A stretch of 64,000 nucleotides of DNA from Methylibium sp. NZG (lineage in GTDB: Bacteria > Pseudomonadota > Gammaproteobacteria > Burkholderiales > Burkholderiaceae_C), in contig LGRD01000013.1 in NCBI GenBank assembly GCA_001263235.1, positions 1 through 64,000 of the forward strand. Direction: 5' to 3'. Of this stretch, positions 29,660 to 61,526 are shown piece by piece. The number at the start of each line of letters is the position of its first letter. Position 1 is the stretch's first letter. A program made the position numbers and the translations under genes. The notes under the pieces are model-generated. The model saw only the letters and a list, made by a program, of their open reading frames with translations. It was not told the DNA's origin and searched no databases.

Positions 29660-29812
29660 ATGTCTGACCCGAACAAGGTGTGGCCCACGGGCTTGACCGA
29701 GGCCGAATCGGAAGACCTGCACCGTCACATCATCCAGGGCACGCAAATCTTCGGCGCCATCGCGGCGCTGGCGCATTTGCTGGCCTACATCTATTCACCC
29801 TGGCTGCGCTAA
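29660..29812 (+). CDS. pucB: LH2 peripheral antenna beta polypeptide
   Basis: A 50-residue antenna protein. It contains KVWPTGLTEAESEDLH, with His21/His23 in the cytoplasmic segment, and bacteriochlorophyll ligand His39 in AALAHLLAYIYSPWL. A strong AGAAGGAGA ribosome site precedes ATG 29660; a longer in-frame ORF upstream is ignored. It is followed by pucA after 19 nt. Confidence 0.96.
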   Translation: MSDPNKVWPTGLTEAESEDLHRHIIQGTQIFGAIAALAHLLAYIYSPWLR

Positions 29813-29831
29813 CCGATAAGGAGATCGAAAC

Positions 29832-30041
29832 ATGATCTACGGAAAACTCTGGTTGGTGGTGAAGCCGTCCGTCGGCATTCCGCTGTTCCTGGGCGCCGTG
29901 GCGGTGAGTTCGTTCGCCGTTCACTACGCCCTGCTGACGCACACCACCTGGCTGCCCAAGTACTACGAGGGCGGTGCGGCGGTCAAGAAGGCCGCAGTGC
30001 CGACCGACACGGTGGTGGCGGTCGCTCCACCACAGAAGTAG
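29832..30041 (+). CDS. pucA: LH2 peripheral antenna alpha polypeptide
   Basis: A 69-residue single-helix protein, opening MIYGKLWLVVKPSVGIPLFL and with ligand His31 in FAVHYALLTHTTWLPKYY. The C-terminus is extended by an Ala/Val/Pro-rich tail, like PufA in this genome. TAAGGAGA lies 9 nt before the ATG. PucA and PucB form the peripheral antenna ring. Confidence 0.95.
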   Translation: MIYGKLWLVVKPSVGIPLFLGAVAVSSFAVHYALLTHTTWLPKYYEGGAAVKKAAVPTDTVVAVAPPQK

Positions 30042-30064
30042 CGGCCTTGGCCATCCTGCGCGAT

Positions 30065-30093
30065 TCGGGCGGGCGCACCCGCTGCCCGCCCGA
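30065..30093 (+). promoter_or_regulatory. pucA-pucC intercistronic hairpin
   Basis: A perfect 10-bp GC-rich stem TCGGGCGGGC / GCCCGCCCGA with a 9-nt loop starts 23 nt after the pucA stop. No T-tract follows. By analogy with Rhodobacter puc and puf it would protect an abundant pucBA transcript from 3' decay and lower pucC expression. Confidence 0.8.
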
Positions 30094-30171
30094 GTTCGCA
30101 CAGGGTCGCCTTTCCGAGCGACGCGTCCCCTCCGCTCGGCCCCTGCGGACCTGCGTCCACTTTTGCGCGCC

Positions 30172-31575
30172 ATGAACCTCATCAGCCGCAAGCTCGTGTC
30201 GGCCTGGGTCGGGATGGGAACCCGATGTCTGCCTTTCGCCGACGCCGCCTCGCCCGACCTGCCGCTGCCTCGGCTGCTGCGCCTGGCGCTGTTTCAGGTG
30301 TCCGTCGGCATGGCGCTGGTGCTGCTGGTGGGCACCCTCAACCGCGTGATGATCGTCGAGCTGGGCGTGCCCGCCTCGCTGGTCGCCATCATGATTTCGT
30401 TGCCGGTGGTGTACGCGCCGTTTCGCGCGCTCATCGGCCATCGGTCCGACAACCACGTTTCGCCGCTCGGCTGGCGCCGCGTGCCCTACATCTGGATGGG
30501 CACGATGGTGCAGTTCGGCGGGCTGGCGGTCATGCCGTTCGCGCTGCTGGTGCTCTCGGGCGGCGGCAACGCCGGCCAGTGGCCGGCCTGGATCGGCCCG
30601 GCCGGGGCCGGCGTGGCCTTCCTTCTGGTGGGCGCGGGGCTGCACATCACGCAGACCGCCGGCCTGGCGCTGGCCACCGACCTCGCGCCGGTCGAGGCTC
30701 AACCCCGCGTGGTCGGCCTGATGTACGTGATGATGCTGGCCGGCAGCATCGTCAGCGCGCTGGTGTTCGGCGCCTTGCTGGCCGATTTTTCACCGGGTCG
30801 GCTGGTGCAGGTGATCCAGGCCTCGGCCGTCGCCACGCTGGTGCTCAACACCGTCGCACTGTGGAAGCAGGAGACGCGCCGCCCCAACCGGCCGGCGCCC
30901 CGCGAACGCCCGCCGTTCCTGGCCGCGTGGCGCGCCTACAGCGGCGGCGCGCACGCTCGTCGGCGCCTGCTGGCCATCGGCCTGGGCACGATGGCATTCG
31001 GCATGCAGGACGTGCTGCTCGAACCCTATGGCGGACAGGTGCTGAACATGGGCGTGGGCGCCACCACGCAGTTGACGGCCGCGTTGGCGCTGGGCGGGCT
31101 GGTCGGCTTCACGCTCGCCTCGCACATCCTCGGGCGGGGCGCGGACGCTTTTCGCATGGCCGGCGCCGGTGTGCTGACCGGCATGGTGGCGTTTGCCACG
31201 GTCATCCTGGCGGCCTCGTTCCAGTCGGTGCCGATGTTTGCCACGGGCGTTCTGCTGGTGGGGCTGGGCGCGGGCCTGTTCGGCCACGGCACGCTGACGG
31301 CCACGATGGGCAGCGCCCCGAAAGATCAGACCGGGCTGGCGCTCGGCGCCTGGGGCGCCGTGCAGGCCACGTCGGCCGGCATCGCCGTGGCGCTGGGCGG
31401 CGTGCTGAGCGACGCCGTCGGCGCGCTCGCCTCGCGCGGCCTGTTCGGCCCGGCGCTGGCCGTGCCGAGCTCAGGGTACATTTTTGTCTATGCGGTCGAA
31501 ATCGTCATGCTGGCCACCACCCTGCTGCTCATGACCGCTTTGATGGGCAGCTCGCGGCGGCCGGCGATGGCTTGA
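30172..31575 (+). CDS. pucC: PucC-family light-harvesting complex assembly transporter-like protein
   Basis: A 467-residue protein of the bacteriochlorophyll delivery (BCD) branch of the major facilitator superfamily, with about twelve helices. Family motifs include LFQVSVGMALVLLVGTLNRV, ALIGHRSDNH and GMQDVLLEPYGGQVL. PucC is needed for LH2 assembly, probably by delivering pigment to nascent subunits. It closely parallels LhaA at 60084-61526. ATG 30172 gives the conserved MNLISRKLVSAWVGMG start. It follows the pucA hairpin and is followed by a 40-residue membrane gene. Confidence 0.93.
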   Translation: MNLISRKLVSAWVGMGTRCLPFADAASPDLPLPRLLRLALFQVSVGMALVLLVGTLNRVMIVELGVPASLVAIMISLPVVYAPFRALIGHRSDNHVSPLGWRRVPYIWMGTMVQFGGLAVMPFALLVLSGGGNAGQWPAWIGPAGAGVAFLLVGAGLHITQTAGLALATDLAPVEAQPRVVGLMYVMMLAGSIVSALVFGALLADFSPGRLVQVIQASAVATLVLNTVALWKQETRRPNRPAPRERPPFLAAWRAYSGGAHARRRLLAIGLGTMAFGMQDVLLEPYGGQVLNMGVGATTQLTAALALGGLVGFTLASHILGRGADAFRMAGAGVLTGMVAFATVILAASFQSVPMFATGVLLVGLGAGLFGHGTLTATMGSAPKDQTGLALGAWGAVQATSAGIAVALGGVLSDAVGALASRGLFGPALAVPSSGYIFVYAVEIVMLATTLLLMTALMGSSRRPAMA

Positions 31576-31602
31576 CGAACAAGGTTTCCTCAGGAGAACT
31601 TC

Positions 31603-31725
31603 ATGGTGTATTTTCTTTTCGGCCTCTGGGTGTTCGTCGTCGCCTTCTGGCTGTTGAACCACTACTTCTACGAGAACAAGAAGTACGAAGAAGAGTACCG
31701 GCGCGGCAAGCGTCCGCGCCGCTAA
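31603..31725 (+). CDS. 40-residue single-pass membrane protein at the end of the puc operon
   Basis: The ORF opens MVYFLFGLWVFVVAFWLLNH and ends with a charged tail (ENKKYEEEYRRGKRPRR). A CAGGAGAAC ribosome site lies 5 nt before the ATG, only 27 nt after the pucC stop. The hydrophobic residues 3-18 can span a membrane; the tail is strongly basic at its end and therefore likely cytoplasmic. I do not recognise the family. Position suggests a small accessory subunit of LH2 or of PucC, comparable in size to the gamma-type or W-type small subunits known in other purple antenna complexes. Confidence 0.78.
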   Translation: MVYFLFGLWVFVVAFWLLNHYFYENKKYEEEYRRGKRPRR

Positions 31726-31784: not shown

Positions 31785-32030
31785 TCAAGTGCCGGGTGGA
31801 TCGCGTCGCCGGGCGTCGCCGCCGCGCAGTTGCTGCAGCCGATCGACGAGCATGCCGACGACGATGGAGCAGAACAACGCACCGTTGACCGCGAGCACAA
31901 CGCCCAGGATCGGGCCGCTGATTTGCTTGCCGAAGTCGTAGCCGTACTTGAGACCGGCCACGATGGCGGCGCCGTAGGCGGCCAGAACGAGGGCACGCTG
32001 CAACGGGCGAGGCGGTGGGGTCGAAGTCAT
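31785..32030 (-). CDS. Small two-helix membrane protein, 81 residues, unknown
   Basis: Two hydrophobic helices are visible (residues about 12-27 and 38-60), followed by a charged tail LQQLRGGDARRRDPP. I do not recognise the family. ATG 32030 fits the codon pattern; the frame is open 15 codons further. It is convergent with the puc operon and divergent from ccmA (225 nt away). It could be a standalone membrane protein; a photosynthetic role is not supported. Confidence 0.6.
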   Translation of the reverse strand: MTSTPPPRPLQRALVLAAYGAAIVAGLKYGYDFGKQISGPILGVVLAVNGALFCSIVVGMLVDRLQQLRGGDARRRDPPGT

Positions 32031-60083: not shown

Positions 60084-61526
60084 TCATCCCGGGTACTCGG
60101 CCAGCCCGAACTTTGCGGCCGGCCGCTGTGCATGGGCCCGCCCGGGGTTGCGAACCAGCGGCCCGATCGCCACCAACGTGGCGAACAACAACAACAATTC
60201 GATGTGGTATACGAAGCTGTAGCCGGTGGCCGGGCTGGTGAGCGCCGTGCCGAGCCAGCCCTGCAGTGCGATGCCTGAGACGATGTCGCGCAGCGCGCCG
60301 CCGAGCAGCACCGCCGTGCCGGCGCAGGTGGCCTGCACGGCGCCCCAGGCACCGAGTACCAGGCCGTTCAAGCCGTTGCTCTCCAGCCCCATCGCCGCGG
60401 TGAGCGTGCCCACCGCGAACAGCCCGCCGCCGAAGCCGATCAACGTGGCCCCGGCGCGAAACAGGTGAGGCGACTCCAGCGGCTCGGCGAAGATCACAGC
60501 CGCAAACGCCACCAGCCCGAACAGCACACCGATCGCCGACACGCGATACGGGTCGGCGCCACGCAGCAGCGCCCGCCCGGCCAGGCAGAAGGCCAACAGC
60601 GCGCCGACCGCCGTGAGCGCGGTGATGACGGTGGTGGCGCTGACCGACAGCTTCAGGATCTCGCCGCCGTAGGGCTCAAGGATGATGTCTTGCATGCTGA
60701 ACGCCGCGGTGCCCAGGCCCACCGCCACCAGGAAGCGGCGCGCTTTGCCGTCGCGCGCGAACTGTTGCCAGGTCTGGCTGAAGCTCGGCTTCGGCGCATT
60801 GGCTGCGCTGCGTTGCCCCCGCTGGCGTGGCTCCTGTTTCCACAGCGCGACCATGTTCAGCAGCATCGCCGCCAAAGCACAGCCTTGCACGACCTGGATC
60901 AGCCGGGTCGGGCTGAAGTCTGTCAGCAAGGCGCCGAACACCAGGCTGGTGGCGACCATGCCGAGCAGCAGCATCACGTACATCAGCGCGACCACGCGCG
61001 GGCGCGCGGCCGGCGGGGCGAGGTCGGTCGCCAGCGCGAGACCTGCCGTCTGCGTGACTTGCATGCCCGCGCCCACTAGCAGAAAGGCGACCGCCGCGCT
61101 GAGCTGCCCCATCCAGTGCGGCGACGGCGACTCCGGCGAAAGCAACAGCAAGGCGAACGGCATGATCGCCAAGCCGCCGAACATCAACCAGCTGCCGGCC
61201 CAGATGTAGGGCACGCGCTTCCAGCCGAGCACCGAGCGGTGCATGTCCGACTTGAAGCCCACCAGCGCGCGGAACGGCGCAAACAGGCACGGCAGCGCGA
61301 CCATGGCCGACACCAGCCACGCGGCCACGCCGAGCTCGACGATCATCACCCGGTTCAAGGTGCCCACCAGCATCACGGTGGCCATGCCCACCGCCACCTG
61401 GAACAACGACAGGCGCAGCAGCCGACCCAGCGGCAACTCGACTGTCGCCGCATCGGCAAACGGCAGAAAGCGCGGCGCGATCTCGCGCCACGCTTGGACC
61501 TTGAACAGTGACAGCGGCGTGATCAC
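60084..61526 (-). CDS. lhaA: LhaA, LH1 assembly factor of the BCD family
   Basis: A 480-residue MFS-like protein with twelve helices, a paralogue of PucC at 30172-31575 (shared LFQVAVGMATVMLVGTLNRV and MQDIILEPYGGEIL). It promotes LH1 assembly. GTG 61526 is the start and overlaps the bchM stop as GTGA. It sits upstream of puhA, as is typical of the puh region in purple bacteria. Confidence 0.93.
   Translation of the reverse strand: MITPLSLFKVQAWREIAPRFLPFADAATVELPLGRLLRLSLFQVAVGMATVMLVGTLNRVMIVELGVAAWLVSAMVALPCLFAPFRALVGFKSDMHRSVLGWKRVPYIWAGSWLMFGGLAIMPFALLLLSPESPSPHWMGQLSAAVAFLLVGAGMQVTQTAGLALATDLAPPAARPRVVALMYVMLLLGMVATSLVFGALLTDFSPTRLIQVVQGCALAAMLLNMVALWKQEPRQRGQRSAANAPKPSFSQTWQQFARDGKARRFLVAVGLGTAAFSMQDIILEPYGGEILKLSVSATTVITALTAVGALLAFCLAGRALLRGADPYRVSAIGVLFGLVAFAAVIFAEPLESPHLFRAGATLIGFGGGLFAVGTLTAAMGLESNGLNGLVLGAWGAVQATCAGTAVLLGGALRDIVSGIALQGWLGTALTSPATGYSFVYHIELLLLFATLVAIGPLVRNPGRAHAQRPAAKFGLAEYPG

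Follow-up and report, generated by a model that had tools for sequence, protein, structure and literature searches.

The puc operon in the window, i.e. the whole 64,000-nt stretch that was analysed, ends in a short gene, here called X, which encodes a 40-residue single-span membrane microprotein, MVYFLFGLWVFVVAFWLLNHYFYENKKYEEEYRRGKRPRR. We regard it as practically certain that X is a real, LH2-linked gene. The sequence comparisons described below have shown that it is protein-coding and belongs to a conserved family of 26-49 residues that ends the pucBAC operon in those Burkholderiales in which the LH2 alpha chain starts with Met-Ile-Tyr. X is apparently an undescribed partner gene of one light-harvesting antenna type in this order and probably helps to build or complete the antenna. 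The features of the region are as follows.

29660 to 29812, forward strand: pucB, LH2 beta, with Gln29 at position -10 from His39; matches an LH2 chain of known structure
29832 to 30041, forward strand: pucA, LH2 alpha, beginning Met-Ile-Tyr and carrying Tyr44-Tyr45; matches an LH2 chain of known structure
30172 to 31575, forward strand: pucC, LH2-type, PUCC family (E 1e-142)
31592 to 31597, forward strand: AGGAGA, a Shine-Dalgarno-like motif, 5 nt upstream of the X start codon
31603 to 31725, forward strand: X, 40-residue single-span membrane microprotein (profile match, codon test and model)
31603 to 31671, forward strand: X codons 1-23, membrane-spanning hydrophobic segment that includes W9, W16, N19 and Y21
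31672 to 31722, forward strand: X codons 24-40, charged, net-positive tail, predicted to be cytoplasmic
31785 to 32027, reverse strand: Q, conserved 80-residue two-helix gene convergent with the puc operon; a neighbour outside the proposed mechanism

The pucB-pucA-pucC operon spans 29660-31575 and X comes next, 27 nt after the pucC stop codon, which ends at 31575. This spacing had been given in an earlier note written from the letters of this DNA, as had a strong ribosome site, which is the AGGAGA at 31592-31597, and an architecture of one helix plus a charged tail, with which the AlphaFold2 model agrees (a single helix of residues 2-35, mean pLDDT 78.5). The hairpin that the note placed after X did not hold up: the predicted fold of the 86-nt segment starting at 31715 is not superior to that of shuffled sequences (z 0.59), 137 of 200 shuffles being at least as stable, and a terminator scan returned no forward-strand site after X. 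Across the family, the gap between pucC and X ranges from -4 to 288 nt, and a Shine-Dalgarno-like motif precedes X in 38/38 cases located by script; L002 and L095 were missed by the script and stand outside the 38. In L004, L006 and L089 (the last being Piscinibacter aquaticus KACC 15278), the ATG of X and the stop codon of pucC overlap by 4 nt, an arrangement as for translational coupling, judged from sequence.

In order to assess the distribution of X, we used 30 pucC loci from 399 genomes of the window's family, 62 of which encode a PucC-like protein, plus 65 loci from named contigs. In many of these loci, a 26-49-codon ORF of X-like build follows pucC. A ten-member profile searched against all ORFs on both strands of 97 loci gave strong matches in a single place, shortly after pucC, and, after the addition of 12 loci, X was counted in 50/109. 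These correspond to 47 distinct loci, as L001, L002 and L037 were removed (same genomes as, or identical PucC to, L003, L175 and L007), and in each of the 47 X follows an LH2-type pucC at a distance of between -4 and about +290 nt. Weaker, likely members are those of the Polynucleobacter-type loci L048, L052 and L058 (E 0.13-0.47, under the cut). A profile built without the window sequence recovered the window ORF with an E-value of 2.9e-9 as the sole match among 1,293 window ORFs, the next-best ORF having an E-value of 5.7. The score of 34.2 bits was reached by 0/1000 full shuffles (maximum 7.8) and 0/1000 half-wise shuffles (maximum 18.3), and X's own genome contained one match. The proposal that a 40-residue membrane-protein ORF ends the puc operon is thus well founded. 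When X alone was used as query against 60 relatives, only one other match, a weak one (L002, E 0.05), was obtained, so that a plain similarity search nearly misses the family.

Whole-genome searches extended this picture. In 300 order-level genomes, 15 matches were found at E up to 0.001, two of which were G000 and G114. The other 13 came from genomes outside the window's family and absent from the profile, and in 12/13 the match comes immediately after pucC; the remaining one (L128) is an unrelated protein with a Cys-containing tail. The 399 family genomes gave 19 matches at E up to 0.01: 16 strong ones (E up to 4.2e-11), of which 16/16 follow pucC and 12 come from genomes that had supplied profile rows, and 3 marginal ones, all away from pucC. 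X was found beside pucC in 0/27 genomes of other orders carrying PUCC proteins; in 3/27 the profile matched longer frames that do not lie near the PUCC genes (E up to 0.1, best 0.0015). A plasmid search returned 10 records, none of them from Burkholderiales, the best (L177) being an LhaA-puhA locus. The iterated profile gave a weak off-site match on the minus strand of L051 (E 0.0015) and a second copy of X in L035, L039 and L061, about 800-890 nt after pucC. This second copy lies past the Q gene and before a gene which, by its translation, we take to be glycogen-phosphorylase-like. In L116 (G408, contig 3), an X-like fragment occurs together with its downstream DNA, possibly as a partial duplication, and the same genome has an intact X beside pucC.

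The substitution pattern of X is protein-like. For 29 loci in 11 groups, pN/pS was 0.28, with 111/72/235 differences at codon positions 1/2/3, and in ungapped pairs pN/pS was 0.22 in frame versus 1.84 and 2.05 in the other frames. The earlier note had named a lack of conservation downstream of pucC in relatives, together with a non-coding substitution pattern, as speaking against the gene; the opposite was clearly found for both. That the ORF arose fortuitously in DNA that codes for nothing, for which the shortness of X and its lack of a database family might be cited, is refuted by the out-of-sample search, the codon test and the leave-window-out profile with its shuffles, and we consider it extremely improbable.

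The members of the family (50 sequences) are 26-49 residues long with a mean peak hydropathy of 2.37 and share a helix motif, W-x6-W-x2-N-x-[FY]-x3-N, followed by a basic tail. In the alignment of 43 sequences, from which L037, L048, L052 and L058 were excluded, the conserved positions in window numbering are W9, W16, N19, Y/F21 and N25; the charged tail beyond is variable and differs widely in length and sequence among members. W9, V12/V13, W16 and N19 would fall on one face of the helix. Since Lys and Arg are richer after than before the helix in 50/50 members, the tail, which is net positive in 46/50, is predicted to be cytoplasmic by the positive-inside rule. No His is conserved: in or around the helix (uncharged stretch), His is present in 22/50 members and dominates no column.

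Comparison of the X family with Pfam, NCBIfam and the PDB matched no family and gave weak, unrelated hits only, and no solved protein chain matched X in sequence. For 17 members, no antenna family was found in Pfam (E up to 10) or NCBIfam, and CydX was absent among the 12 Pfam families (E up to 10) and the 9 NCBIfam families reported for them. A weak NCBIfam match to a PP0621-like family in 10/17 members (best E 0.0066) was read as shared helix composition, because L114 and L128, marginal genome matches to short proteins with a Cys-containing tail that are presumably of the PP0621-like kind, do not lie beside pucC and a tail of this sort is absent from X. In open-access PMC literature, searched at the level of titles and abstract starts, we found no description of a small gene after pucC in Burkholderiales. 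The suggestion that X resembles auxiliary antenna subunits was only partly sustained: X is a conserved coding gene that closes the puc operon, but it has no sequence similarity to the alpha antenna profile or to any solved chain, no conserved His and a predicted topology opposite to that of the antenna alpha and beta chains.

The neighbouring gene Q is likewise conserved: it has 21 matches with E-values of at most 1e-3, every one of them next to pucC in a Burkholderiales locus. It belongs to no Pfam family, and in L018 and L021 it is co-directional with the puc operon. Two further PUCC-family genes are located on contig 2 of G000, the genome of the window, one inside the window (60147-61361, reverse strand) and one at 82036-83220 (forward strand).

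The presence of X was compared with the LH2 type in the 89/109 loci for which alpha, beta and PucC could all be read; loci that were duplicates, had a truncated or frameshifted pucC or lacked pucA or pucB (among them L089, L091 and L093) were left out. In 66/89 loci, alpha Ile2-Tyr3 is combined with beta Gln at position -10 from the B850 His, and in 23/89 alpha Asn2-Asn/Gln3 with beta Arg(-10); Ile2-Tyr3 is always paired with Gln(-10) among these 89 loci. X is present in 46/66 loci of the former type (2 of the 46 weak) versus 0/23 of the latter. According to PMC8775250, alpha-Asn3 of Rba. sphaeroides LH2 bonds carboxy-Met1, the B800 ligand, and beta-Arg30, which corresponds to Arg(-10), bonds the B800 acetyl group, shifting B800 by ~10 nm. 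Since alpha 3 and beta -10 are B800-site residues, the X operons would encode an LH2 subtype with an altered B800 pocket, in sequence terms a change from alpha Asn3 to Tyr and from beta Arg(-10) to Gln, and we infer that B800 of this subtype may be slightly blue-shifted. As a separate trait, alpha residues 44-45 are Phe-Leu in 51/89 loci (28 with X, 2 with a weak X and 21 without). The same paper describes a B800-826 complex for Rba. sphaeroides mutants with Phe-Leu at these positions (PMC8775250), and many of the Phe-Leu antennas may, by their sequence, be B800-820-like.

X is missing from 20 Ile2-Tyr3/Gln(-10) loci, namely L005, L009 and 18 Polynucleobacter-like loci. Those of the 18 that were read have other small ORFs in the position of X; in L085, L096 and L097, for example, these are hydrophobic and about 78, 62 and 51 residues long. 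X is also absent from 10/10 loci of the paralogue LhaA and from Burkholderiales loci in which pucC faces pucBA and PucC is 69-72% (L008, L010-L012, L041, L051 and L066) or 66% (L045) identical to that of the window. In L010, L011, L012, L041, L051 and L066, a FWGTPHT-bearing ORF, 175 residues long in L010-L012, stands closely after pucC in place of X. A PucC tree was calculated without L091 and L093 (too short), three duplicates, L001, L002 and the LhaA rows, and with the 18 Polynucleobacter-like rows thinned to 5. On this tree, the X rows require 6 changes, which would speak against one origin bound to the PucC sequence. A single clade for the Met-Ile-Tyr rows was not rejected (AU p 0.28), and for this reason we do not claim that X has moved independently of PucC. 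For X versus subtype there are only 2 independent contrasts. Column by column, the association with X did not single out PucC over PucA or PucB, and lineage confounds it. The link of X to the LH2 subtype is thus confounded by ancestry.

Our working model, which we hold tentatively and with a little less than even confidence, is that X binds PucC and stabilises or tunes it during assembly of this LH2 subtype, by analogy with CydX. X would be made from the puc transcript and would insert into the membrane with the N-terminus out and the basic tail on the cytoplasmic side. Topology models of PucC place both its N- and C-terminus in the cytoplasm, and the tail of X would thus lie on the same side as the PucC termini and the B800 ring of LH2. 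The helix would contact PucC via the face with W9, V12/V13, W16 and N19. PucC is a 12-helix membrane protein of the bacteriochlorophyll (BChl)-delivery type, and bound X would stabilise or tune it as CydX does cytochrome bd. According to PMC4949548, interruption of pucC greatly reduces LH2 and PucC is needed for efficient assembly. The role of an accessory subunit fits because X has one helix, is encoded next to pucC, shows start/stop overlaps with it at some loci and has a predicted cytoplasmic tail and no pigment ligand; to judge from these sequence features, a role in LH2 assembly with PucC would fit at least as well as that of an antenna subunit. Several results count against this model. 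PucC proteins 66-72% identical to that of the window occur without X, so PucC as such has no need for it, and the 20 loci of the same LH2 type without X argue that X is dispensable or replaceable. X also tracks the LH2 alpha/beta type as closely as it does pucC, which would suit a ring subunit, and conservation on one helix face was marginal in a periodicity test (p 0.054).

The distribution among subtypes and the nature of the substituted residues are what would favour X as a structural, gamma-like third polypeptide of the LH2 ring, its helix attached to the alpha/beta ring or lying within it. On this account, the tail would lie near the cytoplasmic B800 pigments and stabilise the subtype with the remodelled B800 pocket, alpha Asn3 and beta Arg(-10) being the B800-site residues described for Rba. 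sphaeroides (PMC8775250), and an LH2 subunit other than alpha and beta has a precedent in Rps. palustris (PMC9618040). We nevertheless consider such a ring subunit rather doubtful, as X is missing from 20 loci with this subtype, the trait follows lineage with the two contrasts and the AU value given above, X is dissimilar to antenna chains and its gene follows pucC and not pucBA. A stronger version, in which X is a stoichiometric third component of the subtype with the rebuilt pocket and its cytoplasmic end holds, replaces or loads the B800-side pigment, giving alpha-beta-X complexes with altered near-infrared absorption, seems unlikely to us.

Lower still do we rate the reading that X, controlled together with the puc genes, serves in the membrane as a small regulator or as an adaptor for quality control, which would make no stable contact with PucC or the ring and might act on, for example, a protease, the LH2/LH1 balance or membrane shape. 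The wide variation of the tail in length and sequence would suit it, and the literature describes larger membrane proteins as often regulated by small single-span proteins, but the close spacing to pucC, with overlaps of 4 nt at some loci, points to the assembly machinery. That X is a degenerate, pigment-binding antenna polypeptide derived from alpha or beta is very improbable: it shares the operon, a similar helix length and richness in Trp with these chains, but hhalign against the alpha antenna profile gave a probability of 0.4%, and neither a Pfam antenna family (17 members, E up to 10) nor a conserved His was found.

CydX, together with CydY and CydZ, belongs to the microproteins of cytochrome bd operons and provides the analogy for the PucC model. 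According to PMC4325964, CydX has 37 residues and one helix, and its gene shares an operon with that of its membrane partner; X has 26-49 residues and one predicted helix and lies beside pucC at the 47 distinct loci. The same source (PMC4325964) reports that CydX goes with a single allele of its partner and that other small ORFs are found in operons without CydX. X, for its part, may be tied to one LH2 subtype (46/66 vs 0/23 loci, with only 2 independent contrasts), and those X-less Polynucleobacter-like loci that were read carry other small ORFs. No sequence family common to the two was seen (17 members against Pfam at E up to 10), and CydX is an established member of its partner complex, X a putative one.

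PufX and the LH1 gamma of Blastochloris viridis are small extra polypeptides of purple-bacterial antennas, and PucE is an LH2 subunit of roughly 14 kDa. PufX and LH1 gamma belong to RC-LH1 and not to LH2, and X matches no solved chain. PucD and PucE resemble X in being encoded after pucC in an LH2 operon, the Rhodobacter pucBACDE cluster (PMC9231093), but X, with its 40 residues, is smaller than PucE. The gamma polypeptide of Rps. palustris LH2 is, like X, a non-alpha/beta polypeptide tied to LH2 and lies near the cytoplasmic side; it is an extended ribbon without a helix, with six serine repeats binding BChl, and is reported only from Rhodopseudomonas (PMC9618040). X, in contrast, has 40 residues, no repeats and a modelled helix at residues 2-35.

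LH2 is among the best-studied membrane complexes, and yet the conserved gene that closes its operon in several families of phototrophic Burkholderiales is without a Pfam or NCBIfam family. If X acts with PucC, it would open a way into the unsolved problem of LH2 assembly by PucC. If X is part of the ring, it would add a new subunit to the antenna and, should the alpha-beta-X reading be true, these freshwater antennas would have altered near-infrared absorption.
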